A DNA stretch of 64,000 nucleotides from positions 214,288 to 278,287 of the forward strand of contig CADCDA010000001.1 in NCBI GenBank assembly GCA_902800025.1, read 5' to 3'. The notes below the pieces were generated by a model. That model saw nothing but the letters and a program-made list of their open reading frames with translations, ran no database searches and was not told the DNA's origin. Below, piece by piece: positions 1,111-15,443 of this stretch (position 1 is its first letter; each line of letters opens with the position of its first letter). Position numbers and translations under genes: made by a program. This DNA is from an uncultured Erysipelotrichaceae bacterium (GTDB lineage Bacteria > Bacillota_I > Bacilli_A > RFN20 > CAG-826).

Positions 1111-1998
1111 TTAATTCATATGCACTAATGACGCATTTTCTAAACTTATATTTGCAAAACTATCATTTTGACTAATCAACTGGTATTCAAAACCATATTT
1201 GCTCATTTCGGGAACATAATAAAAATCAGCAAACATTTTATTTATGGATTTTAAAAAGGGTGAACTAATATAAACAAAAAGGTTTAACCATTTCCAAACA
1301 TGTAAATTATGACCATTTTGTTTTGCGAAGGATTTTACTATTTCCACAGTATCTGCCAATTCCGCATTTTGTGGATAAAACGTTCCATCTAGTTCTCTCA
1401 ATATGATTTGTTTTACAAACTCGGATAAATTATCAACGAACAACATACTTCTTTTGTTGTGAAAAGCCGGAAAAATTGGTGTAATAGTTCCTAATTTAGC
1501 TAATCGCATAAAATTACCTTTGCAATTAGGCCCATATATCATAGGAGGCCTTAAAATTGCAATTTTAAACGATTTGTCTTCTAATTTATGTAATCCTATT
1601 TCTGCCTGTAATTTGCTGTCTCCATAAAAACCATTTGGATTAGGGACTGTCTCTGGCGTTATTACATTCGCTTTTAATGACTTTGATTCCCTATATACAA
1701 TTCCTGATGACATAAAAATGAAATGTTTCACTCCATGATTTTTTGCATAATTTGCAATTTCAATTGTCAAATCAGTATTAACTTTTCTATATAGTGGCTC
1801 CATTTTTTTCTTTGCATCAACATGGGCAATGCCTGCAACATGAAACACAACATCATATTTTGAGAAGTCAGCCTTTTTCCACTCATCATTAAAAGTCGAA
1901 ACGGTATCTACTTCAAATAATTCAGGATTCTTGAGTAACCATTTCTCGACATTTGTTCCTACATAACTATTTGCACCAGTAATCAAAACTCGTTTCAC
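1111..1998 (-). CDS. NAD-dependent epimerase/dehydratase (extended SDR)
   Basis: A 295-residue extended short-chain dehydrogenase of the UDP-glucose 4-epimerase superfamily. The N-terminal nucleotide-binding motif is TGANSYVGTN and the active-site YxxxK is in FYGDSKLQAE, with SSGIVY supplying the preceding Ser region. Such enzymes epimerise, dehydrate or reduce nucleotide sugars. The GTG start overlaps the stop of the ATP-grasp gene by one base (TAGTG), so the two are translationally coupled. At 295 residues it is slightly shorter than classical GalE, and the C-terminal substrate lobe is divergent, so the sugar cannot be named. Confidence 0.85.
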   Translation of the reverse strand: MKRVLITGANSYVGTNVEKWLLKNPELFEVDTVSTFNDEWKKADFSKYDVVFHVAGIAHVDAKKKMEPLYRKVNTDLTIEIANYAKNHGVKHFIFMSSGIVYRESKSLKANVITPETVPNPNGFYGDSKLQAEIGLHKLEDKSFKIAILRPPMIYGPNCKGNFMRLAKLGTITPIFPAFHNKRSMLFVDNLSEFVKQIILRELDGTFYPQNAELADTVEIVKSFAKQNGHNLHVWKWLNLFVYISSPFLKSINKMFADFYYVPEMSKYGFEYQLISQNDSFANISLENASLVHMN

Positions 1999-3131
1999 TA
2001 TTTAAAATCCTCCCAGTGTTCAAAAAGAACTTTAAATGGTTCTGGATCTTTCTCGTCATAAAAATATGTCCCTTTAGCTTGCTTAAATTCAAGAAGCCAT
2101 TGAGCAAGACTTATTTGACCGCTATCAACACGCTTCCCAAAATCAATAACTTCAGACATATCTGTAAATGGCTCAAAATCCTTTTTTGCGCTTTCGTCAA
2201 TATGCCCATCTATAGTCGATTTTACCCACAAATAAGAAAGAGGCATTCCTGCAATTGATCCGGTATGATTCCATGCAGATGCTCTAAAATTGGTTTCCAA
2301 GAAATAATATGTGTCATCTTGATCAATAAGGAATTCTACTTCGAATATTCCTTCAAAACCAATTTCTTCAAACATTTTCTGAAGTTTAACTTCCATATCC
2401 TTATTTTTAAAAGGAGTAACATCGTGATATGGAGAATAATACCCTTTAATAAGGTATTTCCAAGTTAATGCGGTAACCACCATCATTTCTTTTCCGTGAT
2501 TAACGCAGAACCCTTCTATAGCATATTCGTTCTTTTTATTTACAAATCTTTGAATTAATACCTCTGGACTTGTAATTGTTTTGTATGCCTCTTTTAATTC
2601 GTCTTCGCTATTGCAAATAAAAACATCAGACTTCCAAGAACCAGAGTTTGGAGAAATATCTTTAGTTATAATCGGATAAACTAAGTTTTGTGGAATCTCT
2701 CCTTTTTTTACCACATAAGAATCCAAAACATTGAACCCATATTTTTTGGCGAGCTCTAAGATTTTTTTCTTATCCATAAATTCGTTTATTCTTCCTTGCT
2801 TGCCGGCATTATAAAGAATAAATCTATCCTTTATTTCATCGTAATGTAAATCAAAATAACCAACTGATTTGTCATCAGAGAACAATACTATTGGTCTATG
2901 CTCATAATCATAGTTACCATATTCTTTCAAAAGCAACTTATATCCTTCTTCAACAGAATCAGCACGATAAATCTTTGAGATATATTTACTGTGTGTTGCA
3001 ACTTCTTGTCTACGCTTAATTGAAAAATAGACTGGATTAATTCCATTCTCACCAAGGCTTCTAATTAACCCAAGTGGATTATAATGTTCTAGAGCGAACA
3101 CAATTACTAAATGACCATTAATTGTTTCCAT
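1998..3131 (-). CDS. ATP-grasp ligase of a polysaccharide cluster
   Basis: A 377-residue ATP-grasp protein of the carbamoyl-phosphate-synthase/D-Ala ligase-like fold. An N-terminal Rossmann-like part (LVIVFALEHYNPLGLIRSL) precedes the ATP-grasp lobes, including PIITKDISPNSGSWK, EVLIQRFV and the metal-binding FEVEFLIDQDDTYYFLETN. These enzymes join a carboxylate to an amine or thiol. In a polysaccharide locus the likely job is amidating or aminoacylating a sugar, which is inference. I use the ATG at 3131 (GAGAG upstream, 14-bp overlap with the transferase gene) rather than the in-frame upstream codon at 3173, because homology-like sequence begins at METINGHLVIV. Confidence 0.8.
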   Translation of the reverse strand: METINGHLVIVFALEHYNPLGLIRSLGENGINPVYFSIKRRQEVATHSKYISKIYRADSVEEGYKLLLKEYGNYDYEHRPIVLFSDDKSVGYFDLHYDEIKDRFILYNAGKQGRINEFMDKKKILELAKKYGFNVLDSYVVKKGEIPQNLVYPIITKDISPNSGSWKSDVFICNSEDELKEAYKTITSPEVLIQRFVNKKNEYAIEGFCVNHGKEMMVVTALTWKYLIKGYYSPYHDVTPFKNKDMEVKLQKMFEEIGFEGIFEVEFLIDQDDTYYFLETNFRASAWNHTGSIAGMPLSYLWVKSTIDGHIDESAKKDFEPFTDMSEVIDFGKRVDSGQISLAQWLLEFKQAKGTYFYDEKDPEPFKVLFEHWEDFK

Positions 3132-3789
3132 TAATATTACTCTCTTTTTTATAAACATTCTTTCCAGTAGCAACTGTTTTGATTACTCCAAAAAAAGTTT
3201 TGATATCCAACCCAAAAGACATTTTCTTTGCATAATCGGCATCCATCTTAAATTGAAGGTCTCTCGTTGCTGCTGCTCTATATTTAACATCAACTGTGCA
3301 AAACATTCCAGGTCTTACTTTAAACCGAGGTTCATATTCTTCTTTCGCACATTCTTCATATTCCCATTTTAAAACTGGTCTAGGGCCTATAACCGACATT
3401 TGTCCAAAGAATATATTTATTAATTGTGGCAATTCATCAAGACTTGTTTTTCTTAAAAATCTACCAACTTTTGTGATTCTTAAATCTTCTTCGCTAGATG
3501 CTATTCCACCCATTTCATATGCGTGATCACACATAGTACGAAATTTATATATTATAAATTCTTTTTTGTTTCTTCCAATTCTTTTTTGCTTAAATAACAC
3601 AGGTCCTTTACTATCACATTTGATAATAATAGAAACAATTAGCATTAATGGCCATAACAAAAGCAAAAGAATAATCGAACCTACGATTTCACAAAAGCGC
3701 TTTGCGAATAATTGATAAAAAAATAACACTACTAGAAGCGCAATAAGTAATGAGCCAAAAACTATAAGAAGAATTAGCCACCAATCCAT
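3118..3789 (-). CDS. Sugar transferase (phosphoglycosyl transferase) 2
   Basis: A 223-residue bacterial sugar transferase of the monotopic phosphoglycosyl transferase superfamily. It moves a sugar-1-phosphate from a UDP-sugar to undecaprenyl phosphate, starting lipid-linked glycan assembly at the membrane. Core motifs are FKQKRIGRNKKEF, YKFRTM, the catalytic Asp-Glu in TSLDELPQLINIF, and SVIGPRP. A first hydrophobic segment (about residues 3-25) precedes the usual re-entrant helix (about 36-57), so it has one more membrane segment than PglC. It lies between the deacetylase (2-bp gap) and the ATP-grasp gene. It is the second such enzyme in this operon, and the C-terminus differs from the first copy. 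Confidence 0.9.
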   Translation of the reverse strand: MDWWLILLIVFGSLLIALLVVLFFYQLFAKRFCEIVGSIILLLLLWPLMLIVSIIIKCDSKGPVLFKQKRIGRNKKEFIIYKFRTMCDHAYEMGGIASSEEDLRITKVGRFLRKTSLDELPQLINIFFGQMSVIGPRPVLKWEYEECAKEEYEPRFKVRPGMFCTVDVKYRAAATRDLQFKMDADYAKKMSFGLDIKTFFGVIKTVATGKNVYKKESNINGNN

Positions 3790-3791
3790 CG

Positions 3792-4463
3792 TTATCGTCT
3801 TCTATAAACACATTCAAATGCTTCAGCGTAATTGCATCCAGATTGAGATCCTCTAAAAGCTGCAAGGCCTTTAATTGCTTCTTCACTTCTTGGGTGAGGA
3901 TATTCTCTCATAACACCCTTATACGCTTTTAAAGCATTGAGCTTGATTTCAACTCCGTCTTTACCAATCTCAACAAAATAATTTGGAGTAAATCTATTCA
4001 TGGATGAATCCAAACTCCATTCTGTTGAAGATGGAATCTCCATATAAAGGAATTCCTTTAACGCTGGAATATTTGGCTTTCTTTGGAATAATCTACAAGC
4101 AGCTTGTGCGGCATAAGATGTTTGAACATGGTCATTATTTGTATCAGATGGATGATGAGTAATAATCGCATCAGCGCCAAAGTCTTCGATGCACTTCTCA
4201 ATGAATTGAACTAAATCCAAATGAGGAACTGTATTCATCTTAATGTTTGGAAAGTCTGCAGAATATGTCTTAGTAACTCCAAGAATATTCAACGCTTTCT
4301 TTTGATCTTCTACTAAAGTATCAGAGATATTTGCTCTCGCAGCAGCATGGTTAGCCATAGTTGCAATAGCAACCTTATGGCCTTCTTTGATTAATTTGTG
4401 AATTGTTGCTCCAGCGCCAAGAACTTCGTCATCTGGGTGAGCCACTACTACTAAATAGTTCAT
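3792..4463 (-). CDS. PIG-L/LmbE family N-acetyl-sugar deacetylase
   Basis: A 223-residue zinc-dependent deacetylase of the PIG-L family, which removes acetate from GlcNAc-like sugars. The zinc/catalytic motif is VAHPDDEVLGAGA near the N-terminus, and the second motif ITHHPSDTNNDHV supplies the distal His. Length and motif spacing are normal for the family. Its place between a band-7 protein and a sugar transferase suggests that it acts on a nucleotide sugar or lipid-linked sugar of the polysaccharide, possibly exposing an amine for the ATP-grasp ligase encoded two genes downstream (inference). It is followed after 2 bp by the next gene. Confidence 0.88.
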   Translation of the reverse strand: MNYLVVVAHPDDEVLGAGATIHKLIKEGHKVAIATMANHAAARANISDTLVEDQKKALNILGVTKTYSADFPNIKMNTVPHLDLVQFIEKCIEDFGADAIITHHPSDTNNDHVQTSYAAQAACRLFQRKPNIPALKEFLYMEIPSSTEWSLDSSMNRFTPNYFVEIGKDGVEIKLNALKAYKGVMREYPHPRSEEAIKGLAAFRGSQSGCNYAEAFECVYRRR

Positions 4464-4474
4464 ATATCCAATCC

Positions 4475-5134
4475 TTATTTCTTTCCAAATGGTTCAATAA
4501 AGTTAATCTTAAACTCAGAAACAGTCACTCCGTAGTCATCTGCAACTTTGTTCAGTAACTCAACCAACTTATCAGAACACTTACGATAATCCTTAACAAT
4601 CTCTAATGCATGACCATCGTCTGCATATTCTCTAAGACTATCATTAATCTTTGTGATGATTTCATTTTGATAACTGTCTCTATGTTCAAAGAACTTTTCA
4701 ATACCAGTTACTTTGTATCTCAATGTGTAGTTGATTTTATATAACGCATCTGGTCCGTTATTGATATATAACTTGTCAGAGTTGAATTCTTTCTCATCTA
4801 AGCCAATAACTGCGCCTAAAGAATCTTTAAAAGGTACCATGAAGTATTTTGGCGAATCTTCTTCAATAAGCTTATAAATCTTTCCACCACGAACCACTAC
4901 TTTAACTGTATTTCCGGCAGGCTTTACGATTCTTCTGAGTAAATAAACTGCAATAATTAATAAAACAATGAGTCCAATAACAATATAAAACCACGGACTC
5001 TTGACCATGTTCTTTAAGAACTCAGTAATCTTTTCAGTGGAGCCACTACTGGAACCACTTCCACTACCAGAATCACCTGTATCTGTTCCTGTTCCGGTAC
5101 TGGTAAAAATAAATAAGTTATCAAATAAACTCAT
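4475..5134 (-). CDS. Membrane-anchored SPFH/band-7-like protein
   Basis: A protein of about 219 residues with a short Gly/Ser/Thr/Asp-rich N-terminal stretch (about residues 10-32), one transmembrane helix (WFYIVIGLIVLLIIAVYLL, about 47-65) and a band-7-like domain containing YKINYTLRYKVT. SPFH proteins scaffold membrane complexes, and this one may organise the glycan machinery. The start at 5134 (ATG) is chosen because GAAAGGTG lies 8 nt upstream; an in-frame TTG at 5152 has nothing comparable. It is the first gene after the terminator hairpin behind loaP, so its expression probably depends on read-through. A specific function is not recognisable. Confidence 0.65.
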   Translation of the reverse strand: MSLFDNLFIFTSTGTGTDTGDSGSGSGSSSGSTEKITEFLKNMVKSPWFYIVIGLIVLLIIAVYLLRRIVKPAGNTVKVVVRGGKIYKLIEEDSPKYFMVPFKDSLGAVIGLDEKEFNSDKLYINNGPDALYKINYTLRYKVTGIEKFFEHRDSYQNEIITKINDSLREYADDGHALEIVKDYRKCSDKLVELLNKVADDYGVTVSEFKINFIEPFGKK

Positions 5135-5171
5135 AACAAAAACACCTTTCAAAAAAATCTATCGATATAAA

Positions 5172-5196
5172 AAGTGACTTTAATAATTCGTCACTT
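5172..5196 (-). terminator. Intrinsic-terminator-like hairpin behind loaP
   Basis: On the minus strand AAGTGAC and GTCACTT form a perfect 7-bp stem (5190-5196 with 5172-5178) followed by TTTTTAT. The hairpin overlaps the last codon and TGA stop of the loaP-like gene. It sits inside the operon, before six further polysaccharide genes, which is where a processive antiterminator would be expected to act. Confidence 0.6.
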
Positions 5197-5724
5197 CCTA
5201 ATTTTGTTCGTAATTATATTAATTCCTAGTTGAGCGGTCACCATTCGACCACACATTGAAAATTCCACTACTACAACTTTCTTATGTAAGTTCACTTTCA
5301 CTATTGAACCTAATAAGCCTTCTAATGGTCCATCTAACACTCTTACAATTTCACCTTCATGTACTTCAATATCGCTAATCTCTGTAGTTCTACCAGAATC
5401 GTTTGAGTAAAGGATATCAATCATTCTTGCTTCATCTTCATTTAAAGGTAAGAAGTTTTCTGTATGTCCTTCTCTACCAAGCATCTTGGTAAACTCAGGA
5501 GTCCAATATAACTCAACAAAGAAATCATATGGTTTATCTGTCTCTACAAATAGATATCCAGGGAAACATCTAACAATAACTTCTTTCTCAACACCCTTAA
5601 ACTTTTTGATTACTTTACGATATGGAGCAAATACATCAAAACCAGGACGATTACCAATTTGTCTTTTAATCGCATCAATGGTCTTTTGTTCTTTTCCTGT
5701 TCTTACTTGAATAACGTAATACAT
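5191..5724 (-). CDS. loaP: NusG-family transcription antiterminator, LoaP-like
   Basis: A 177-residue NusG paralogue with an NGN domain (starting MYYVIQVRTGKEQKTIDAIK, about 1-105) and a C-terminal KOW domain (EGEIVRVLDGPLEGLLGSIV, about 125-177). Specialised NusG paralogues of the LoaP/UpxY type ride on RNA polymerase and suppress termination in long polysaccharide or natural-product operons. The ATG at 5724 is preferred because TTTAGGAGAA lies just upstream; the in-frame codon at 5748 lacks this. The gene ends in TGA, direct evidence that UGA is a stop here. It lies third in the operon, after a structured intergenic RNA and before a terminator-like hairpin. LoaP rather than housekeeping NusG is inferred from context. 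Confidence 0.8.
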   Translation of the reverse strand: MYYVIQVRTGKEQKTIDAIKRQIGNRPGFDVFAPYRKVIKKFKGVEKEVIVRCFPGYLFVETDKPYDFFVELYWTPEFTKMLGREGHTENFLPLNEDEARMIDILYSNDSGRTTEISDIEVHEGEIVRVLDGPLEGLLGSIVKVNLHKKVVVVEFSMCGRMVTAQLGINIITNKIRK

Positions 5725-5867
5725 GTGTATTTCTCCTAAAAACCGCAATAGGTCATCTAATAGATATAATGAATATATCTATCGTGTTAGATATGGCCTC
5801 TAAACCCTATGGAGGTGCATCAATGGCTTCGACCTAGTGATTTAGATTGATGTAGTAGATTAGCAAA
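5725..5867 (-). promoter_or_regulatory. Structured RNA region upstream of loaP
   Basis: This 143-bp gap is unusually long for the operon and rich in inverted repeats. ATAGATATA/TATATCTAT form a perfect 9-bp stem with a 5-nt loop (5760-5782). CATCAAT/ATTGATG form a 7-bp stem enclosing about 21 nt (5818-5852). CCTC/GAGG lies between them. No U-tract follows, so it is not a simple terminator. LoaP proteins are known to need an RNA hairpin in the leader of their target, so this could be the loading site or a loaP autoregulatory leader. This role is inference. Confidence 0.5.
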
Positions 5868-6482
5868 CTAACTTTGTTTGCCTTCAATAACATCCTTTTC
5901 GGTTATTGACTTAATAATTGAAGAGAAGACGATTCTAATGTCTAACCAGATGTTAAACTTCTTGAGGTAATAAGTATCTAATTCTACTTTTTCCTCAATT
6001 GTCACATCATCTCTTCCATTACATTGTGCCCAACCAGATAAGCCTGGTCTAATAATATGGACACTGTTATTGGTTCTCCCTTCAATAAGATCTTTTTGGG
6101 ACCATAATGCAGGTCTAGGCCCAATAAAGGACATATGACCAACGAAGATATTGAAGAGTTGTGGTAATTCATCAATTGAGGTTCTTCTGATGAACTTACC
6201 AAATCTAGTGATATATCGTTCTGGATTCTCTAAAAGGTGTGTAGGTACATCTGTAGGTGTATCCTTATGCATGCTTCTAAACTTGAGAATCAAGAACTCC
6301 TTGTTGTTCTTTCCAATTCTTCTTTGTCTAAAGACTGGGAACGCTTTTGTGTCTATCCAAACAATAACACCGACAATTAGTAATAGCCAGGATAGTAACA
6401 AGATAGCAATTAACGAGAACAAGATATCGAATAATCTTTTAAACGGAAGATATATCTTCTGTCGTAACGTTAGTACACTCAT
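5868..6482 (-). CDS. Sugar transferase (phosphoglycosyl transferase) 1
   Basis: A 204-residue PglC/EpsL-type phosphoglycosyl transferase. One re-entrant hydrophobic segment (about residues 17-42) is followed by RQRRIGKNNKEFLILKFRSM, the catalytic Asp-Glu in TSIDELPQLFNIF, and FIGPRP. The C-terminal IRPGLSGWAQCNGR and DTYYLKKFNIWLDIRI are typical of the compact group. It would start lipid-linked oligosaccharide synthesis on undecaprenyl phosphate. The start overlaps the end of the dehydratase gene by 4 bp, so the pair is coupled. Together with a 4,6-dehydratase, a diaminotrideoxyhexose (bacillosamine-like) first sugar is plausible. Confidence 0.9.
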   Translation of the reverse strand: MSVLTLRQKIYLPFKRLFDILFSLIAILLLSWLLLIVGVIVWIDTKAFPVFRQRRIGKNNKEFLILKFRSMHKDTPTDVPTHLLENPERYITRFGKFIRRTSIDELPQLFNIFVGHMSFIGPRPALWSQKDLIEGRTNNSVHIIRPGLSGWAQCNGRDDVTIEEKVELDTYYLKKFNIWLDIRIVFSSIIKSITEKDVIEGKQS

Positions 6483-8362
6483 CGTTTCTTTTTATCCACT
6501 GGAGTGTTTTCAGTGATCGTATAAGTATCAATCACTTGAGATAATAGCTTCTTCACGTCCTTAGTTTGTTCCATATTGAAGACTGCACTTATGGTTTCAA
6601 CATCTTTAATAGCAGAATCTCTACTCTTCTCTCTAAGTTCAATGAAGATCTTTTTATTTTCAGTCTTGACTTGGTGTTCCTTATCAAGAAGTAACTCTTC
6701 ATAAAGTTTTTCACCTGGTCTAAGACCAACCTCAACGATTTCAATATCTTTTCCTGGAACCATACCAGCTTGTCTAATAAGACGTTCCGCTAGGTGCATA
6801 ATCTTTACTGGTTGACCCATGTCAAGAATAAATATCTCTCCACCTTGAGCGAATAATCCGCACTGTAAGATTAAGGATACCGCTTCAGGGATGGTCATAA
6901 AGTAACGAGTAATATTCTTATCAGTAATAGTGACTGGTCCACCAGCTTCAATTTGTTTTTTGAATAAAGGAACAACACTTCCGTTACTTCCTAAGACGTT
7001 ACCAAATCTCACTGCCGCGTAGGCGGTCTTTTTAGAGTGAGATGAATAATATTGAATAATTGTTTCCGCAAATCTTTTAGTGGCCCCCATAACATTAGTA
7101 GGTCTAACAGCCTTATCTGTAGAAACAAGAACCATCTTCTTAACACCATACTTATCAGCGAGTCTAGCGACATTATATGTACCAATAACATTGGTTCTAA
7201 TTGCCTCTGCTGGAGAATCTTCCATAAGAGGGACATGTTTATACGCTGCCGCGTGATAAATATAATCTGGTCGATATTGTTTTAAGATTTGTTCAACTCT
7301 GAAATCGTTATATGTTGAACCGATAAGAGTAACTAAATTGATATCAGTGATATTCTCTTCTCTAATTTTTCTTTTGAGTTCCATTTGAATGTCATAAGTT
7401 GAGTTCTCATAGATATCAAAGAGAATAAGTGTTCTTGGATGAGTCTTGAATATTTGTCTAACAAGTTCACTACCAATTGATCCACCTGCGCCTGTCACCA
7501 TAACAACTTGGTTATGTAACATATTGTTAACTTCATGGTTGTCTAAGATAATAGGATCTCTACTAAGCAAGTCATTTAAGTCAACATCGATGATTCTTGT
7601 ATCATTTGGTCCTTCCATTTCCCCTAAAGTTGGAAGACGTCTAACTCTAACAGGACATCCATCTAATATCGCTAGTATTTCATGAAGTCTTTCTTGAGTG
7701 AGATCGCTAATCGCGATAATCACTTCTTCAACTTCGTAATATTCAATAATGGTTGGTAAGGAAGTTAATGGTCCCTTAACTGGAAGAGTAGCGAATGTTC
7801 CACCAATCTTATTGACATCATCATCGACAAAGGCGACAACGTGATTATGGTTATCTTTGTTACGTCTTGATTCATCAACGACGATCTTTCCAGCGGCACC
7901 TGCTCCAATAACAAGAGTTCTAATTTTGTTTTTCTTAGAGAGCATCGCTCCTAATAAATTGAAACCTCTAAACGCTAAACGTAAGCTTGGAAGAATAAAT
8001 GATAAGGCAATCGCTGATATCGCCCATGTCCAGAAGAAATGGTCTGCGGATGGGAAAACCTTAAGTATTGATAAGACGATAATACCAACGACTTGAACAG
8101 AGAATGTTGCAACCATAATCTTGAAACATTCAAATAGTCCAACATCCTTAACTAAGATTCTGTAGTTTTGAATAAGTAAGAAAACGACAAAGTTCGTCAC
8201 AGCGACAACCGCTGAATAGATAAGGACAGGAGTGAGGTTGTTCCAGATTTCAGGGACATCATAGTACGCTAAAAAGGAAATGAACATCATTCCAAATGTC
8301 ACTAAGATATCAATGATAGCTAATATGTAACCATATGCTGGTTTAAATCTTTGATACTTCAT
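6479..8362 (-). CDS. Membrane UDP-GlcNAc 4,6-dehydratase (PglF/CapD family)
   Basis: A protein of about 627 residues with four transmembrane helices in the first 125 residues, then two Rossmann domains: a CoA-binding-like domain (VIGAGAAGKIVV, about 150) and the catalytic extended SDR domain (VMVTGAGGSIGSELVRQIF, about 285). DKAVRPTNVMGATKR carries the modified Lys region of the PglF/WbpM group. It makes a UDP-4-keto-6-deoxy-HexNAc. The ATG at 8362 is preferred over a TTG at 8386; neither has a strong ribosome-binding site. It is the first gene of the operon, 110 nt from the predicted transcription start. Confidence 0.92.
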   Translation of the reverse strand: MKYQRFKPAYGYILAIIDILVTFGMMFISFLAYYDVPEIWNNLTPVLIYSAVVAVTNFVVFLLIQNYRILVKDVGLFECFKIMVATFSVQVVGIIVLSILKVFPSADHFFWTWAISAIALSFILPSLRLAFRGFNLLGAMLSKKNKIRTLVIGAGAAGKIVVDESRRNKDNHNHVVAFVDDDVNKIGGTFATLPVKGPLTSLPTIIEYYEVEEVIIAISDLTQERLHEILAILDGCPVRVRRLPTLGEMEGPNDTRIIDVDLNDLLSRDPIILDNHEVNNMLHNQVVMVTGAGGSIGSELVRQIFKTHPRTLILFDIYENSTYDIQMELKRKIREENITDINLVTLIGSTYNDFRVEQILKQYRPDYIYHAAAYKHVPLMEDSPAEAIRTNVIGTYNVARLADKYGVKKMVLVSTDKAVRPTNVMGATKRFAETIIQYYSSHSKKTAYAAVRFGNVLGSNGSVVPLFKKQIEAGGPVTITDKNITRYFMTIPEAVSLILQCGLFAQGGEIFILDMGQPVKIMHLAERLIRQAGMVPGKDIEIVEVGLRPGEKLYEELLLDKEHQVKTENKKIFIELREKSRDSAIKDVETISAVFNMEQTKDVKKLLSQVIDTYTITENTPVDKKKR

Positions 8363-8478
8363 ATCCAAGTTCTTATTATAGACCAATATTAATAAAATTT
8401 AAATTTTAATTAATTTTGAAGCCTTTTCTGTTTGTCCCCTAAATACTCCCTACATTTTTTATAAAATGTGCTTGCTAT

Positions 8479-8588: not shown

Positions 8589-9311
8589 TTATTTTATCCA
8601 ATCTTCAGGTTTTTTTATTGTTTTGATTTTATCTACTGTATGGTTTGTGTATGAATACTTATTTACTTCAAATCCATCAATGGTTTCATATTTCTTATTT
8701 GAAATATTCTTTACACTTGTAGCGTCGCTAACAATACCTAAAATATATTCTGGTTTTGAGTTGCTATATAAAGAGTTTAACACTAAAGCATTTCTAAAAT
8801 ATTTCCCGTTTTTGGAAAGAAAATCACTATTAACATGCAAACCAGCTTTCTTTATTAAAAAACACAATAACATTGCAGTCGTTCTAGTATTGCCTTCTCT
8901 AAAAGGATGAATATGCCAAAACTCCGAAACAAAATAACAAACTTTCTCTATTTTTTCTTTCGAGTTAAGTTTTTTCCAATCAACACTTTGATACTCTTTA
9001 TCTAAATCTTTTAATGCCTGAATAATATATGAAGCAAAAACATAATCAATAGATTTTCCATCAAGAATGGATTCTCCTTTATAAATATCTATTGTTCTTG
9101 GCTGCCCTGCCCACTCATAAAGGTTGGAAAATAAATATTTATGTATTTTAAGGCCATCTAAAATTGAATCGATTTGAAAATCACTCTTTCTCAACCTATT
9201 AGCAGCAAGCCCAGCAAAATCGGATTCTGCTTTATCGAGAGTGTCTCCATCTTTGATATTTAATTTATTAATTAGCACATTAGTGCCTTGATATACATAC
9301 GGATCTTTCAT
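8589..9311 (-). CDS. Fic-domain protein (likely AMP-transferase toxin)
   Basis: A 240-residue Fic protein with the full active-site motif HPFREGNTR at residues 135-143 (catalytic His, phosphate-binding Gly-Asn-x-Arg). Fic enzymes usually transfer AMP from ATP to a hydroxyl of a target protein. I see no [ST]xxxE[GN] inhibitory helix within this protein, so it looks like class I, controlled by a separate antitoxin. The gene overlaps the upstream RelB-like gene by 4 bp (ATGA), as in a toxin-antitoxin pair. No terminator is visible between its stop and the polysaccharide promoter, so read-through into that operon is possible. Confidence 0.88.
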   Translation of the reverse strand: MKDPYVYQGTNVLINKLNIKDGDTLDKAESDFAGLAANRLRKSDFQIDSILDGLKIHKYLFSNLYEWAGQPRTIDIYKGESILDGKSIDYVFASYIIQALKDLDKEYQSVDWKKLNSKEKIEKVCYFVSEFWHIHPFREGNTRTTAMLLCFLIKKAGLHVNSDFLSKNGKYFRNALVLNSLYSNSKPEYILGIVSDATSVKNISNKKYETIDGFEVNKYSYTNHTVDKIKTIKKPEDWIK

Positions 9312-9628
9312 TGTTTATACAACCTTGCAATAGCAAATTCTGCAGTTTCATAATCAATTTCGCCACGAGAATATAGTCTCATGATTTTTTGTGCTTTTTC
9401 AGATGGAGCAACTCCATCAACAGTTGCCAGAGCAGTAGCAAACGCTAAATCACTATCTTCATCGCTAGGAAGTGTTAATTCAAAAGGTAATCCGTTTTTA
9501 TTTACAGAAGCGGTTAAAAAAAGCATAATTGCTTGGCTTGTTGTTAAACCAAGTTTAGAAAAAATCTTATCTGCCTGTTTTTTGATATCGTTTGTTACTC
9601 TAGTATGAACCGTTTCTGTTTTCGCCAT
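9308..9628 (-). CDS. RelB/DinJ-like antitoxin paired with Fic
   Basis: 106 residues. The first ~50 (VHTRVTNDIKKQADKIFSKL, then GLTTSQAIMLFL) are a ribbon-helix-helix of the RelB/DinJ type, which binds operator DNA as a dimer. The last ~40 (VDGVAPSEKAQKIMRLYSRG, then EIDYETAEFAIARLY) look like the helical VbhA-type modules that cap Fic enzymes, although the [ST]xxxE[GN] motif is degenerate here (LATVDG). The ATG at 9628 has GAGGT 9 nt upstream. RelB proteins normally partner with RelE/YafQ RNases; here the partner is Fic. It probably represses its own promoter at the palindrome upstream. Confidence 0.8.
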   Translation of the reverse strand: MAKTETVHTRVTNDIKKQADKIFSKLGLTTSQAIMLFLTASVNKNGLPFELTLPSDEDSDLAFATALATVDGVAPSEKAQKIMRLYSRGEIDYETAEFAIARLYKQ

Positions 9629-9646
9629 TATCCATTACCTCAATAA

Positions 9647-9672
9647 TATTGTATCACGATTGCGACACAATA
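9647..9672 (-). promoter_or_regulatory. Palindromic operator/promoter of the RelB-Fic pair
   Basis: TATTGT and ACAATA form 6-bp outer arms around 14 bp, with further partial symmetry inside (TC/GA). On the minus strand TACAAT inside it is a good -10 (5 of 6), with a weak -35 16 bp upstream. The overlap of palindrome and -10, 19 bp upstream of the ATG, fits autorepression by the ribbon-helix-helix protein. Confidence 0.55.
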
Positions 9673-9770
9673 CAAGTTTAATAATATTACGGTCGAATTA
9701 TTATCGCTATAATTATCAATCTAATCGCTCTTCTATTTATATTTATGATTCACGTAGTTGGAATTAACAA

Positions 9771-10238
9771 TCACAATAGTCTAATGCCTTCCTTTAATAT
9801 TTCTAAAATAATTGGATTGTCACTTTGTAAATCACATAGTCTAAGTAAATCTATCTTTTTACCAAGCGCAGTTCTGATTTCTTCAATTAATCCATAGAAA
9901 GACAAACCAGTAATATCGGTATCAATCAATAAATCAACATCACTATTTTCTTTAGGGTTGCCTTTTGCGTAGCTACCAAATAGATAACAATACTTGATTC
10001 CTTTTGCCACTAAGATTGGAATTAACAATTCTTTTATTCTATCAATAGATAGTATTCCATGTTCTTCATCTATTTTTGTTTTTTCGCTTAATTCAGACAA
10101 AACCATTCGATACTTAAAAGTATTTAAATATGAATCATTCTCTTCATAACGAATATATGTTCGATATGGAATACCCACTAATTCGGCAGCTTGTTTTTGT
10201 GTTAAGTGATTTTGCTTTCTAATTTCTTTTAATGACAT
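9771..10238 (-). CDS. XRE helix-turn-helix fused to a minimal nucleotidyltransferase (MNT)
   Basis: 155 residues from the chosen ATG. Residues 1-50 are an XRE-type helix-turn-helix (MSLKEIRKQNHLTQKQAAEL, then VGIPYRTYIRYE). Residues 65-155 are an MNT-fold nucleotidyltransferase with LFGSYAKGNPKENSDVDLLI, giving the GS motif and the metal-binding Asp pair at about 100 and 102. MntA-type proteins are antitoxins that AMPylate HEPN RNases, but no HEPN gene lies beside this one. The longer start (TTG at 10274) coincides with a TTGACA -35 box and is rejected. The ATG at 10238 begins the HTH; it has little or no Shine-Dalgarno and may be leaderless. Confidence 0.75.
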   Translation of the reverse strand: MSLKEIRKQNHLTQKQAAELVGIPYRTYIRYEENDSYLNTFKYRMVLSELSEKTKIDEEHGILSIDRIKELLIPILVAKGIKYCYLFGSYAKGNPKENSDVDLLIDTDITGLSFYGLIEEIRTALGKKIDLLRLCDLQSDNPIILEILKEGIRLL

Positions 10239-10248
10239 ACGACTATAA

Positions 10249-10298
10249 TTTACCATTTTGGCAAATATTGTCAATTAGAAATTTACCATTTTGGCAAA
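10249..10298 (-). promoter_or_regulatory. Promoter with two identical 17-bp operators
   Basis: The 17-bp sequence TTTACCATTTTGGCAAA occurs exactly twice (10249-10265 and 10282-10298), 33 bp or about three helical turns apart. Each is an imperfect palindrome TTTrCC-N5-GGyAAA. Between them on the minus strand is TTGACA (10270-10275), and TAAATT 16 bp on overlaps the near copy. This arrangement is as expected for cooperative autorepression by the XRE-nucleotidyltransferase protein. The rest of 10299-10467 shows nothing recognisable. Confidence 0.65.
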
Positions 10299-10487: not shown

Positions 10488-13031
10488 CTACTTATGTTCG
10501 TAATTTGCATAACTTGGATCAATAATCACTAATTCGGAATAATTATCAATCTCAGTAACATATTTCTTTTTACATTCCCTAACTTCAACTTTGAAGTCTT
10601 TCTTACATACGGTTAAAGGAACGTTATCCCAATACTTCTCTTTTCCACCTCTAGAGTTAAATACTTTGACGATATCTTCTCTTAACTTAATGGAATCTTT
10701 TTCATTCCAATAAGAAATACCAATCATATGCCAACAGTTTTCTCCTCCAACAGCAACTCGATCAATATAGTTGCCTTTCTTAAAGAAACACCAGTCATCA
10801 GTTTCAGAAACATACGCTCCTAGATAGTTAGAAGCATATTGATATTTAGTGATTACTTTTGGATTAGAAACAATTAAGTCTGCTTCACAAATATAACACC
10901 TATCGATAATATCTCTAGCCACATACATACTAGATATATTGTTTGATTCGTTATAGATAGGGTTTTCAATAAACTTCAGTGTTGGATACTTTTCAAGCAA
11001 TTGATTAAATTGTTCTTTCTTATATCCCACGACGATTGTGATATTTTTAATATCCTTTGCATATAACGCATCTAATAAAGTATCAATAATTCTTACTCCA
11101 TTAACTTTCACTAATGGTTTAGGAGTATCTAAAGTAACAGGCGCCATTCTTGAACCAAATCCGGCAGCGATAACAATCGCTTTTCTCACTTTATATGGTT
11201 CAAGTAACTTATATCCTTTTTCTGTTAGTTCAATCTTCTTGTCAGAGTGAATGACAATTGCGTCATCTTCAACGAATTGATTGATAAGCTTATTAATAGT
11301 GCCTAGTGACAAAGTCACCCCATCCGCGATTTGTCTTTGAGTAAGCGCTTCGTTATTATGCTCCTCAATATAAGTTAAAAAGTTAAATTGAAAACGTGTT
11401 AATTCCATTTTTTGTTCTCCCTTTCCTTTATTTATTTTTTCAATCAATTTACTAAGGTAATCAAACCCAATCTTAGTAAGTAGATTGATAACTAATATAA
11501 GTGTTGAAATAACCGATTCCATCTCCCAGATGGATTGGTTCTCATAAGTTGTGATAGACACTGCAAGTGGTTGAGTTGCATATGTACATAAGAAACTAAC
11601 TGCGGAAATAGTAATCATGCTATTGATGAATAAATATGAAAACATCTGCACTATAGTGCTAGTGGTATTAGGAATCATCACCTTAAAGAAAAGTGAGACT
11701 CTAGAAATACCTAAGGTATCCGCGACTGTTTCATAATTCTTATTAATCTTTTCAAAAGCGTTTCTTGCCATTAAATATGGACTAGAGAAATAGTGAATCA
11801 AATTAACAACCACTAATATCGCAATAGTGCCTGCAAACCAACCATAAGTATTAACGAACAAAAATACATATCCAATACCTAAAACAAGTCCTGGAACCGC
11901 TAAAGTGGCAATAGAGATAAAGTGTAATGGTTTTCTCATCTTCCCATTAGTCCTAGTGGACGTATAAGCGGAAGTATAAGCAATAATCGTCCCAAATATA
12001 CCAGTTAATAAAGCGATAACTAATGAGTTAATAAGGAAATCAATAATTGAAACACTGCTATATGGAGAGAAAGCGTTAATGTAGTTATCAAAAGTAAAAG
12101 TCATATCACTTGGGAATCGATTCACAAATGAGACAATGATAAAGGCTAAAGAAGGAATAAATAATAGTATTCCAACTAAAATATTGATACATAAACCAAT
12201 AGTGTTAAACGCTTTACTAGGAGCGATATGCTCTTTCCCATAAGCGCAATCCGCGTTCTCTTTATTTAAAATATCAAAGATAAATGCAGCGACCGCTGGT
12301 AATAGTAACACTAAAGAGATTACAACCCCTCTTTCGGTCTTAAACATCGATAATACTTGTTCATATAAATACATAGGAAGAGTCTTTACTTTTCCTGCTA
12401 CTTCCATAGGTAAACCATAGTCTGCAAAGATCAAAGTGAAACTAGCAAAGAATGCTGATATAAGCGCGTTCTTTAGGTATGGTAAAGTGATGCCAAAAAA
12501 GGTCTTAAATCTCGATATCCCTAATGTGTTAGCCGCGTCATAAACACTCCTATCTTCATATATAAGCGCATCATATATAAGTAGGAACGCAATTGGAAAA
12601 GAAAATAATACCGAACCAACAATCAAATCAAAAAATCCTAGACCATCAAAGTTTAAGCCAAACATCTGATCTAAAAATCCATTGACCCCAAATAAAGTTC
12701 TAATTCCTAAACCGATTGAAATAGTTGGGATAAGCATTGGTAAAGTTAATAATAGAACAATCCATCTTTTCCCTTTAATTTTAATGCGGCTTAGGAAATA
12801 GGCCACTACTGTGGCTAATATCGTAGAAATAAGGGTACCCGCTAAAGAATAAAGAACTGAGTTACCAATTGCCTTATAAAAAACATCATCATTAAATACA
12901 TATTCAAGGTCACCACTAGTGACATTAAATAACATATAAATAAGAGGCAAAATCAAAAAGACAAAGAGGATTAAAAATAATCCAATTTGTAATAATAAAG
13001 ACGGCTTTATTTTCTTTAGAAAGGCTTTCAT
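10488..13031 (-). CDS. ABC permease (AEP/iron type, double) in frame with winged-helix cytidylyltransferase
   Basis: 847 residues in one frame. Residues 1-541 are a duplicated binding-protein-dependent permease: two sets of about six helices, each with the EAA-like loop (YDAANTLGISRFKTFF and YETVADTLGISRVSLFFKV) that contacts the ATPase. Residues 542-605 are a MarR-like winged helix (TQRQIADGVTLSLGTINKLI). Residues 613-847 are a nucleotidyltransferase of the LicC/PntC type (VIAAGFGSRMAPVTLDTPKP), which makes CDP-choline or CMP-aminoethylphosphonate. With the ATPase and binding protein upstream, it forms an uptake-plus-activation unit for a phosphonate- or choline-like group. An internal ATG at 11408 with its own ribosome-binding site would give a free 306-residue enzyme. 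Confidence 0.85.
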   Translation of the reverse strand: MKAFLKKIKPSLLLQIGLFLILFVFLILPLIYMLFNVTSGDLEYVFNDDVFYKAIGNSVLYSLAGTLISTILATVVAYFLSRIKIKGKRWIVLLLTLPMLIPTISIGLGIRTLFGVNGFLDQMFGLNFDGLGFFDLIVGSVLFSFPIAFLLIYDALIYEDRSVYDAANTLGISRFKTFFGITLPYLKNALISAFFASFTLIFADYGLPMEVAGKVKTLPMYLYEQVLSMFKTERGVVISLVLLLPAVAAFIFDILNKENADCAYGKEHIAPSKAFNTIGLCINILVGILLFIPSLAFIIVSFVNRFPSDMTFTFDNYINAFSPYSSVSIIDFLINSLVIALLTGIFGTIIAYTSAYTSTRTNGKMRKPLHFISIATLAVPGLVLGIGYVFLFVNTYGWFAGTIAILVVVNLIHYFSSPYLMARNAFEKINKNYETVADTLGISRVSLFFKVMIPNTTSTIVQMFSYLFINSMITISAVSFLCTYATQPLAVSITTYENQSIWEMESVISTLILVINLLTKIGFDYLSKLIEKINKGKGEQKMELTRFQFNFLTYIEEHNNEALTQRQIADGVTLSLGTINKLINQFVEDDAIVIHSDKKIELTEKGYKLLEPYKVRKAIVIAAGFGSRMAPVTLDTPKPLVKVNGVRIIDTLLDALYAKDIKNITIVVGYKKEQFNQLLEKYPTLKFIENPIYNESNNISSMYVARDIIDRCYICEADLIVSNPKVITKYQYASNYLGAYVSETDDWCFFKKGNYIDRVAVGGENCWHMIGISYWNEKDSIKLREDIVKVFNSRGGKEKYWDNVPLTVCKKDFKVEVRECKKKYVTEIDNYSELVIIDPSYANYEHK
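11408..11426 (-). promoter_or_regulatory. Internal ribosome-binding site for a separate cytidylyltransferase
   Basis: Inside the fused gene the minus strand reads GGAAAGGGAGAACAAAA followed by ATG at 11408, exactly in frame with the permease (residue 542) and exactly where the winged-helix domain begins (MELTRFQFNFL). This is a better ribosome-binding site than most in the window. It suggests that the permease and enzyme were originally two genes, that the permease stop was lost, and that both a fusion and a free enzyme may be made. Confidence 0.7.
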
Positions 13032-13033
13032 TT

Positions 13034-13795
13034 TTATTTTGTACTATCTAATATCGCTTTCGCTTTTTCATCCAAATGATTAACGACGAATTTTCTCACA
13101 AATTCATCAGAAGGATTTTTATAGATATTATTCGGTGTATCAAATTGAGCGATGTGACTATCATTCATCACAATTATTCTATCTGACATCGAAAAAGCTT
13201 CTTCTTGATCATGAGTAACATATATCATCGTTTTATTTAATTTCTTTTGGATTTCTTTAATTTCTTTTCTTAAAGACATACGGATATCGGCATCTAATGC
13301 GGACATTGGTTCATCAAAAAGAATGATATCTGGGTTTAAGGCTAAAGTACGAGCAATCGCTACTCTTTGTTGTTGACCACCACTCATCTTAGTTGGCTTT
13401 TTAGTAGCGAATTCACTTAAACCAACAATACTTAAAACATTATCAACAGTCTTTTTGATTTCTTCTTTTGGATATTTATGAGCTTTTAAAGCGTAAGCGA
13501 CATTATTCCATACATTCATATTTGGAAATAAAGCGTAGTTTTGAAACACTAAACCCATTCCTCTACTTGATGGAGTGTTATTTGTAATATCTTGTCCATC
13601 TTTTAAGATGATTCCTGTATCGGCCTTTTCTATTCCAATAAGAATCTTCAAAAGTGTGGTTTTACCACATCCAGAAGCACCTAATATCGAGATAAATTCT
13701 CCTTCTTTAATATCAAAAGAGATATCTTCTAAAATAATTTGTCCATTAAATTTCTTATTAATGTTAATAACACTAATCTTGTTTACATTTTCCAT
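13034..13795 (-). CDS. ABC transporter ATP-binding protein (2-aminoethylphosphonate/Fe3+ type)
   Basis: 253 residues with all ABC ATPase motifs: Walker A GASGCGKTTLL (about 37-47), signature KMSGGQQQRVAIARTL, Walker B DIILFDEPMSALD and the switch His in YVTHDQEEAFSM. It energises import through the fused permease, whose start is 2 bp downstream. Sequence style matches PotA/FbpC/PhnT importers, and no C-terminal regulatory TOBE domain is obvious at this length. It overlaps the binding-protein gene by 13 bp. The transported ligand is inferred from the attached cytidylyltransferase, not from this protein. Confidence 0.9.
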   Translation of the reverse strand: MENVNKISVININKKFNGQIILEDISFDIKEGEFISILGASGCGKTTLLKILIGIEKADTGIILKDGQDITNNTPSSRGMGLVFQNYALFPNMNVWNNVAYALKAHKYPKEEIKKTVDNVLSIVGLSEFATKKPTKMSGGQQQRVAIARTLALNPDIILFDEPMSALDADIRMSLRKEIKEIQKKLNKTMIYVTHDQEEAFSMSDRIIVMNDSHIAQFDTPNNIYKNPSDEFVRKFVVNHLDEKAKAILDSTK

Positions 13796-14823
13796 GCGTC
13801 TAATAACTCATTCTTATAATTTGGATCTAAAAGATTTTTCATATTTGTGTAATCAACTCCATAATCACTAGGAGATTTCCAGTTTTCCACTGTTGGAGTT
13901 AAAGCATATTCAGATTTATAAATAGTTTCAGGAACGATTTGAGAATTATCTAAATAGTTCACATAGCTAAAGAAATAATCATATACTTCTTTAACCGCGC
14001 TATTATTTTGTTTTCCATTAATCATTCCCATTGTATACAAGGTATATGGGGATCCTTCAGAGAAATAAGTAATACCAATATCACTATTTCTATTCGCATA
14101 TTCCACAGCCTGGAAATGCATCCCAAGTCCAACCGCGATTTCTTTTTTATCAACACCTTTAACTGGACCAGAACCACTACTGGACCATTCTTTGATATTC
14201 GTGTCTAAATTATTAAAGTAACTTAAAGCACTATCTTTTCCGTATATACTTGCTAAACCATTATAGAAATAATAACCAGTACCACTAGTTTTTGGATTAG
14301 GCATAATAATTGAATTTTTATATTTGGAATCTAATAAATCATCATAACTTGTTGGGATATTATCACCAACTAAGGATTTAGAATAAACAATACAGCCCGC
14401 TTCTTTATCTTGAATATGATATTTTTTATGACCTTTTCTAACTGTTCCATCCGCTAAAACGGTGTCTTTTTGATATTCTAATACTTCATCCACATAGTGG
14501 GAGGTATCATAATCAGAAAGATCTGCAAATAAGTTTTCATTACCTTTAAGTAAGATTTCGGCATTTGTGATTTCAATACCAACAAAAATATCACAAGTCG
14601 TTCTTGTTCCTTGTGCTTGAAGTTCACTCATTAACGCTCCAGTAGTTTTTGACACTACTTTAATATCGTAATTTGGGAACTTTGATTTAAGTTCTTTATT
14701 AAATAATTGAATACGATTATCTTCGTGAGCGGTAAAAATAAATATTGTTTGTTTTTTATTACATCCGACTAAGGCGGTAACCGCTAAAGCGGCAAGCGGT
14801 AAGAGTTTTAATACTTTGTTCAT
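13783..14823 (-). CDS. Extracellular solute-binding lipoprotein of the same importer
   Basis: 346 residues. The lipoprotein signal peptide has its lipobox in ALVGC, giving Cys at about 21. The mature part (KQTIFIFTAHEDNRIQLFNK) is of the extracellular solute-binding family that includes Fe3+ and 2-aminoethylphosphonate binding proteins. It would capture the ligand outside and hand it to the permease. It is the first gene of a three-gene operon and overlaps the ATPase gene by 13 bp. The ATG has GGAG 8 nt upstream. Ligand-specific residues cannot be assigned by eye. Confidence 0.85.
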   Translation of the reverse strand: MNKVLKLLPLAALAVTALVGCNKKQTIFIFTAHEDNRIQLFNKELKSKFPNYDIKVVSKTTGALMSELQAQGTRTTCDIFVGIEITNAEILLKGNENLFADLSDYDTSHYVDEVLEYQKDTVLADGTVRKGHKKYHIQDKEAGCIVYSKSLVGDNIPTSYDDLLDSKYKNSIIMPNPKTSGTGYYFYNGLASIYGKDSALSYFNNLDTNIKEWSSSGSGPVKGVDKKEIAVGLGMHFQAVEYANRNSDIGITYFSEGSPYTLYTMGMINGKQNNSAVKEVYDYFFSYVNYLDNSQIVPETIYKSEYALTPTVENWKSPSDYGVDYTNMKNLLDPNYKNELLDAWKM

Positions 14824-14839
14824 TCATTTTCTCCAAATT

Positions 14840-14876
14840 TGTTCATCTGAACATCATTATATCAAAAAAATGAACA
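14840..14876 (-). promoter_or_regulatory. Promoter and palindromic operator of the importer operon
   Basis: On the minus strand a perfect TATAAT (14856-14861) is followed by the 14-bp palindrome TGTTCAGATGAACA (14840-14853), and a further TGTTCA half-site lies upstream (14871-14876). The palindrome covers the expected transcription start, ideal for repression. The winged-helix domain encoded at the end of the operon is a candidate regulator (inference). The -35 is weak (TTTTCA). Confidence 0.55.
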
Positions 14877-14989
14877 TTGAAAAGCATTTATTATTTAGAT
14901 TAAAAAAATATTCATTGTCATACTTTTTCAATAGATGTATGCCAATTTGTCATAGTTAAACAAAATTTATATGCCAATTTACATAAAAA

Positions 14990-15021: not shown

Positions 15022-15106
15022 TGGTGCGGCTAACAGGAATCGAACCTGCATGAGTCTCCTCACTAGATCCTAAGTCTAGCGCGTCTGCCAGTTCCGCCAT
15101 AGCCGC
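15022..15106 (-). tRNA. tRNA-Leu (anticodon UAG)
   Basis: 85 nt including encoded CCA. The acceptor stem GCGGCTA/TAGCCGC is perfect. The anticodon stem CTAGA/TCTAG encloses CTTAGGA, giving anticodon TAG (reads CUA/CUN). A long variable arm is present, as in class II tRNA, and GGTTCGATTCC forms the T arm. Confidence 0.95.
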
Positions 15107-15114
15107 AAATTAAT

Positions 15115-15138
15115 AAAAACCCTTTTTGCGGGGTTTTT
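15115..15138 (-). terminator. Terminator-like hairpin between tRNA-Thr and tRNA-Leu
   Basis: AAAAACCC and GGGTTTTT form a perfect 8-bp stem with an 8-nt loop. The stem ends in T5 on both strands, so it could work in either direction. It may separate tRNA-Leu from the upstream tRNAs or mark a processing point. Confidence 0.55.
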
Positions 15139-15151
15139 ATAAGTCAATCAA

Positions 15152-15227
15152 TGGTGCCGTCTATCGGAATCGAACCAACAACCTATCGATTACAAATCGA
15201 TTGCTCTGCCAATTGAGCTAAGACGGC
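15152..15227 (-). tRNA. tRNA-Thr (anticodon UGU)
   Basis: 76 nt with encoded CCA. Acceptor GCCGTCT/AGACGGC is perfect. The anticodon stem ATCGA/TCGAT encloses TTTGTAA, giving anticodon TGT (reads ACA). D and T arms are normal. Confidence 0.95.
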
Positions 15228-15234
15228 ATATGTG

Positions 15235-15309
15235 TGGTGGACACTACAGGGATCGAACCTGTGACCTCTTCCGTGTGAAGGAAGCGTTCTCCCGCTGAAC
15301 TAAGTGTCC
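15235..15309 (-). tRNA. tRNA-Val (anticodon CAC)
   Basis: 75 nt with encoded CCA. Acceptor GGACACT/AGTGTCC is perfect. The anticodon stem CTTCC/GGAAG encloses TTCACAC, giving anticodon CAC, which reads only GUG. A dedicated GUG reader is uncommon in small AT-rich genomes, which usually manage with the UAC isoacceptor. Confidence 0.93.
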
Positions 15310-15332
15310 CTATAGTGTTCTTTATTTAATTA

Positions 15333-15353
15333 AAGCCCTACTTTTAAGGGCTT
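15333..15353 (-). terminator. Hairpin between tRNA-Ile and tRNA-Val
   Basis: AAGCCCT and AGGGCTT form a 7-bp stem. On the minus strand it is followed by TAATTAAATAAAG, a poor U-tract, so this is a weak terminator or a processing signal. Confidence 0.35.
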
Positions 15354-15366
15354 AGGACGCAAATTC

Positions 15367-15443
<77 letters not shown>

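Follow-up and report, generated by a model that had tools for sequence, protein, structure and literature searches.

Our analysis of a 64,000-nucleotide stretch of the genome of an uncultured Erysipelotrichaceae bacterium (the window) revealed a gene that joins three parts in one frame: a PhnU2-type double permease, a winged-helix domain (wHTH) and a cytidylyltransferase of the LicC/PntC type. Inside the gene, where the free homologues of the enzyme begin, lies a second start that, by comparison among fused species, is under selection. We think it probable that the operon encodes an importer for 2-aminoethylphosphonate (AEP) with a tethered enzyme, and that the internal start yields a diffusible enzyme-repressor of the same operon. 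The features to which we refer are as follows.

10488-13031 (-): fused gene, 847 aa, PhnU2-type double permease plus wHTH plus LicC/PntC-type cytidylyltransferase
11409-13031 (-): permease part, residues 1 to 541, with the TIGR03262 match at residues 14 to 531
11193-11408 (-): winged-helix domain, residues 542 to 613 (MarR_2 match in 46 of 50 family members; helices and wing in the model)
11289-11309 (-): presumed recognition helix, motif SLGTINK, from the family pattern
10488-11192 (-): cytidylyltransferase domain, residues 614 to 847, nearest solved structures LicC and PntC
11417-11424 (-): internal Shine-Dalgarno (SD) core AAAGGGAG, pairing energy -9.3 kcal/mol, kept in 13 of 18 fusions
11406-11408 (-): internal ATG, in frame, where free homologues start
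13034-13795 (-): ABC ATPase, PhnT2-like (TIGR03265, 340 bits)
13783-14823 (-): substrate-binding lipoprotein, PhnS2-like (TIGR03261, 128 bits)
14841-14875 (-): operator-like site GTTCA-N25-TGAAC (35 bp) over the operon promoter, from promoter comparison and motif counts
14818-14852 (-): second GTTCA-N25-TGAAC, overlapping the first and reaching the lipoprotein start codon; shared with L061, L062, G190 and G189
14856-14883 (-): sigma-70-like promoter TTTTCA-16-TATAAT (10 of 12 consensus positions; shuffled versions of the region also yield about 2 matches)
1111-8386 (-): surface-polysaccharide genes (sugar transferases, epimerase/dehydratase, de-N-acetylase) bordering the operon, context only

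The frame lies on the minus strand, opens with ATG and runs without a stop. Its length of 847 codons had been stated in an earlier sequence-only reading of this DNA, which named no strand; that reading was also correct in giving the enzyme part 306 residues. The permease part holds two BPD_transp_1 stretches, and the NTP_transferase and NTP_transf_3 matches begin at residue 617; an HTH_45 match at residues 563 to 614 is weak and below its cut-off. Lipoprotein, ATPase and double permease stand together in one operon (13031-14823), as in PhnS2T2U2 importers, and PhnS2, PhnT2 and PhnU2 are the best NCBIfam matches of the respective proteins. All three scores lie below the equivalog cut-offs (330.6 bits against 593 for the fused protein, 340 against 458 for the ATPase, 128 against 393 for the lipoprotein); hence, the importer is related to PhnS2T2U2 but is not filed as a member. 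Solved relatives of the lipoprotein include AfuA and PhnS. AfuA, of the sugar-phosphate importer AfuABC, has the binding residues His205, Asp206 and Glu229 (PMC4546632); in a pairwise alignment read by eye, the lipoprotein has the His and the Glu, and Phe replaces Asp206, unlike the AfuA site. The full-length model (pLDDT 80, built from 11 sequences only) has a long helix at residues 502 to 537 and then a low-confidence hinge at 536 to 542, exactly at the internal start. The free 306-residue form was modeled with a pLDDT of 95.6. Just upstream of the operon are four tRNA genes (Leu, Thr, Val, and Ile; 15022-15443).

Is the fusion real? The window comes from a draft assembly of 26 contigs, in which an assembly or sequencing error might have removed the stop between two genes. 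However, 17 other species, one of them represented by an isolate genome, have the same in-frame fusion, which rules out an assembly error and leaves this explanation with virtually no probability. In a survey of 224 genomes of the window's family, 8 have the full-length fusion, the seven besides the window's at 50 to 82% identity; in another genome (G153), the permease and enzyme genes overlap but are not fused, and in G034 they lie on different contigs. The sequence-only reading had named a stop or frameshift between the two parts in close relatives as evidence against it; we saw a separation of this kind only in G034 and in more distant unfused homologues, whereas the seven family relatives are fully fused. 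Scanning GTDB genomes, we obtained 80 enzyme loci: 12 are fused, 30 have the permease directly upstream, 7 have the enzyme first and then the transporter, and 31 have no permease nearby; because the loci were picked by similarity to the enzyme, these proportions, including the 49 of 80 loci in which the same type of transporter adjoins the enzyme, are not a census.

Overall, we found 18 distinct fused species, among them the isolate Beduini massiliensis. The tree of the enzyme part groups 17 of the fusions in a single clade (support, 1.0), with Beduini placed outside it; two fusion events are therefore enough. The permease of G034 is placed among the fusions in the permease tree, from which we conclude that this genome probably lost its fused enzyme. 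In a wider enzyme tree, enzymes of choline-kinase operons fall among the fusions with low support (0.79). The unfused operons illustrate a ready route to fusion, since the enzyme starts at most 30 nt from the permease stop in 25 of 29 of them and overlaps the permease gene in 15.

At the junction, GGAAAGGGAGAAC, the ATG (11408-11406) comes 8 nt after the SD core (11424-11417), which bears out the strong SD and in-frame start noted from the sequence alone. This ATG has the best anti-SD pairing among the 17 internal ATGs of the gene (next best, -6.4 kcal/mol). In the window's sequence by itself, the SD is not significant, as 42% of synonymous shuffles are equal or better (0.42), and the case against a chance SD is a comparative one, drawn from the 18 fused species. 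An in-frame ATG with an SD at the position where free homologues start is kept in 13 of them, and the remaining five (G119, L063, L064, L065, and L071) have no start codon at the junction. The junction is the best internal ATG by anti-SD pairing in 12 of the 13 start-keeping fusions and the second best in Beduini. The linker residues differ among fusions (GKGEQK, RKVEKD, KEDESV, and IKEDTI), and conserved four-fold-degenerate residues have matching third positions in only 17 to 48% of cases, which shows that silent sites are saturated. The mean SD energy across fusions is nevertheless -10.4 kcal/mol, compared with -5.8 kcal/mol in synonymous shuffles, and was matched in 0 of 20,000 shuffles, also when only one sequence per sublineage was used. 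On this comparative evidence, the internal start is under selection.

A comparison of promoters of close relatives showed a common palindrome beside the -10 box, and other groups, including PEP-mutase operons, have the same half-sites spaced wider. The tight palindrome TGTTCANNTGAACA was rejected as the family operator, as it occurs only in the window's close relatives and the general form has a 25-bp spacer. We counted the pattern GTTCA-N(2-30)-TGAAC upstream of the first gene and found it at 26 of 32 transporter-first operons (dinucleotide-shuffle expectation, 0.27) and at 19 of 38 enzyme-first operons (expectation, 0.41), the latter including 13 of the 15 PEP-mutase operons, compared with 11 hits among 560 regions upstream of other genes; the motif was discovered on part of the counted set, so these counts are not independent. 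The spacer bias was not built in: in 977 kb, the spacer is 25 bp in 39 cases, 26 in 12 and 24 in 4, and other lengths occur about once each, except for 7 cases with no spacer. Some enzyme-first operons without an exact match carry GTTCC instead of GTTCA. The window's genome (1.57 Mb) contains the 25/26-spaced form three times, two of them overlapping at this promoter; our search for further genes under the operator in this genome gave one site (C1:6058), which is not above the control rate. The -10 box lies within the upper site (14841-14875), which suggests repression.

The winged helix itself looks like that of a DNA-binding autorepressor. Most of the free and fused members compared have a recognition helix of the pattern S-[LV]-G-x-x-N-[KR]. 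It is intact in 12 of the 13 fusions that keep the internal start (two of them end the motif with Ala or Glu) and degenerate in all five that lack it (SVSALSR, SLSNAAR, TLGGAAK, TLDNTSK, and TLPHTAK). In four of these five genomes, a separate gene encodes a free wHTH-enzyme whose helix is intact (SLGTVNR, SLGTVNR, SLGGVNR, and SVGSVNR); in one of the four, L071, no operator was found near the transporter genes, and the free gene is preceded by a site with one mismatch. The fifth genome (G119) has neither a free copy nor an operator. No free copy was found in the window's close fused relatives G017, G022, G154, G189, and G190. The exception among the start-keeping fusions is L067, the sister of G119, which has an internal start, a degenerate helix and no recognizable operator. 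Its enzyme part (7001-7909) retains the ATG with a weaker SD, and it is apparently a fusion midway to losing the regulatory role. The joint loss of helix and internal start, which rests on about two independent events, together with the intact free copies, is what would be expected if repression fell to the free form and catalysis to the tethered one. The sequence-only reading had proposed that two products, a membrane-tethered and a free cytidylyltransferase, couple uptake to CMP activation of a scavenged compound. Our data agree with its fusion and internal start and make the coupling and the scavenging plausible, but the free product is probably a DNA-binding autoregulator and not merely a free cytidylyltransferase.

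Two simpler accounts of the same gene have to be weighed against this proposal. The internal start could be a relic, left over from the old ribosome-binding site when the permease stop was lost, with only the full-length protein being of importance; after all, the free gene ancestrally started at this ATG, and five fusions manage without it. We regard a relic as highly improbable: the fusion is old and its silent sites are saturated, yet the SD was kept in 12 descendants, and loss of the start goes with decay of the recognition helix and usually with the presence of a free copy. Conversely, the free wHTH-enzyme could be the main product and its link to the permease neutral, the wHTH serving only structure or dimerization and the operator belonging to an unrelated regulator. 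Unfused operons do work with two overlapping or adjacent genes. However, none of the 17 descendants of one fusion has closed the linker or shifted its frame, an indication that the full-length product is also in use, and in five of them this gene cannot yield the free form. Moreover, helix and operator occur in the same operons whatever the neighboring pathway, and we consider a neutral link improbable too.

What does the importer carry? In a comparison with solved structures, the enzyme domain is nearest to LicC (Z score, 31.2; 29% identity) and then to PntC (Z score, 26.0), with other nucleotidyltransferases at 22.6 or below. The E-A-D motif with the catalytic metal Asp (Asp107 in LicC) is invariant in the fusions. 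At the position of LicC Asp105 and Tde-PntC Glu104, every fusion has Glu, as do all 15 PEP-mutase-linked enzymes that have no permease close by; at the position of LicC Asp192 and PntC Glu196, the window's enzyme has Asp, as in LicC, and the same 15 enzymes all have Glu. The wHTH-enzyme family stands beside PEP mutase in 17 of the 80 loci, two of which (L115 and L126) also hold a transporter. One of these, in Treponema socranskii (L126:3672-12202), has the order lipoprotein, ATPase, permease, wHTH-enzyme, PEP mutase, phosphonopyruvate decarboxylase, and PntC-AEPT homologue, with the operator in front of the whole run; the last protein matches the characterized 6pd1 with an E value of 1e-276. 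Likewise, the spirochaete MS499-28 has AEP synthesis genes inside the transporter operon. The sequence-only reading had noted that phosphonate synthesis genes are absent nearby, and indeed PEP mutase was not found anywhere in the window's assembly (95% complete), nor in the seven other fused family genomes except for a subthreshold match in G214; four of the more distantly related fusion genomes (G262, G263, G267, and G270) do have it. Breakdown of AEP by phosphonatase was rejected, as none of 13 fusion genomes has a match above the cut-off of TIGR01422, a profile with many weak matches (all 14 control genomes also match only below the cut-off). AEP requires no kinase ahead of CMP activation, and the operon has none. 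Given this, the missing PEP mutase and the linkage of the family to PEP mutase, scavenged AEP is the likely substrate and our best guess.

A different substrate would nevertheless fit some of the evidence. The operon could import phosphocholine or phosphoethanolamine, from which a LicC-type enzyme would make CDP-choline or CDP-ethanolamine to decorate the surface: among solved structures LicC is the closest, the aromatic-box residues and Asp192 match it, LicD genes adjoin two fused operons, and close homologues occur in choline-kinase operons of relatives. Against this stand the linkage of the wHTH-enzyme family to PEP mutase, with a shared operator, and the PntC-like Glu in all fusions. The free choline-kinase-like gene of the genome is unlinked to the operon and is found in 19 of 19 genus members with or without this enzyme. 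A choline route via an enzyme-fused kinase was rejected, because that kinase belongs with a different cytidylyltransferase subfamily (CTk, with Ser at the Asp105 position). We therefore consider a LicC-type substrate unlikely. Of the ligands suggested from the sequence alone, a phosphonate is favored over phosphocholine by gene context, which is not proof, and iron is unlikely beside a cytidylyltransferase. Relatives also encode wHTH-cytidylyltransferase-choline kinase proteins with an adjoining amidohydrolase (L033:8328-11012, L034:8420-11107, and L035 to L039), two of them fused to a second cytidylyltransferase (895 aa); these look like a related pathway of multi-domain proteins with no evident name.

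The surface-polysaccharide genes bordering the operon are, from their position, a possible source of the acceptor for activated AEP. The corresponding operon in G214 neighbors a flippase, a glycerophosphotransferase and a polysaccharide gene. No dedicated transferase for the activated product was identified in the window's genome. LicD was rejected as a linked acceptor enzyme, since it adjoins the fused operon only in L067 and L070 and the window's genome (G000) has only a weak, unlinked homologue that is common in the genus. About 5.4 to 9.5 kb past the low end of the window (L028:8769-12874, contig C1), there is a row of genes for a HAD phosphatase, a 240-aa nucleotidyltransferase, an iron-type alcohol dehydrogenase, and a CDP-glycerol glycerophosphotransferase, which we take to resemble a teichoic-type pathway based on CDP-glycerol (Gtp1-3-like). 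The interval that separates the fusion operon from the polysaccharide genes (8589-10274) holds a RelB-like antitoxin beside a Fic-domain protein, and a protein with an HTH and an MntA-like nucleotidyltransferase; these are possibly toxin-antitoxin genes.

We hypothesize that a phosphonate, most likely AEP, enters through the importer encoded by the operon PhnS2-PhnT2-(PhnU2::wHTH-cytidylyltransferase) and that it would be activated with CTP and then transferred to a glycan of the cell surface. The full-length protein of 847 residues would be the membrane subunit of the importer with the cytidylyltransferase on its cytosolic end. Any benefit of tethering may then lie in the incoming substrate meeting the activating enzyme, so that it would be activated on entry and hence trapped. 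The internal SD and ATG would yield a second, soluble wHTH-cytidylyltransferase of 306 residues, which may bind GTTCA-N25-TGAAC over the operon promoter and repress it. Repression would presumably be set by what occupies the active site of the free form.

Each module of this system is already known. PntC (Tde1415 and Ari1348; PDB 6pd1 and 6pd2; PMC6697681) resembles the window's enzyme in its fold (Z score, 26) and in the Glu at the AEP-side position, and its setting resembles that of the family members beside PEP mutase. However, its fusion partner is AEP transaminase or PEP mutase, it lacks a wHTH and a permease, and it serves synthesis rather than uptake. LicC (phosphocholine cytidylyltransferase; PDB 1jyk) has the nearest fold and the same aromatic box, but has Asp at position 105, where the window's enzyme has Glu, and no wHTH. 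LicC acts after choline kinase. The putative AEP importer PhnS2T2U2 (TIGR03261, TIGR03262, and TIGR03265), the best match of all three window proteins at scores below the equivalog cut-offs, differs in that only the window's permease carries an enzyme; it is presumably of the same type as AepXVW (PMC8316502). In IPCT-DIPPS of Archaeoglobus fulgidus (PDB 4mnd), a cytidylyltransferase is likewise tethered to a membrane protein. Its partner there is a CDP-alcohol phosphotransferase and not a transporter. The nearest functional analogue would be NadR, a nucleotidyltransferase with an N-terminal DNA-binding domain that, with PnuC, traps an imported compound and represses uptake or synthesis genes (PMC7221760). 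The wHTH-enzyme family appears to share with NadR a DNA-binding-type domain on a nucleotidyltransferase and an operator-like site at its own or linked operons. However, enzyme and transporter are unrelated to those of NadR/PnuC, NadR is not fused to the transporter and their direct contact is unproven, and we do not claim common descent. For the permease fusion, the second start, the wHTH-enzyme as a regulator, and the operator, no description was found in the open-licence literature.

More tentatively, we propose a new class of regulated importer, in which a permease carries a substrate-activating nucleotidyltransferase and the same gene also makes an enzyme-repressor; the wHTH-cytidylyltransferase family may then regulate phosphonate surface decoration in many Firmicutes and spirochaetes via GTTCA-N25-TGAAC. 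The gene is a natural experiment in which a conserved internal start would turn one gene into a tethered enzyme and a free repressor, and the lineages without that start show where the second job went. The family also offers a testable regulator and operator for both synthesis and scavenging operons. Our work suggests that even bacteria that do not synthesize phosphonates can acquire them by scavenging and present them at the cell surface; phosphonate-decorated glycans would then be expected in a wider range of organisms than has been assumed.
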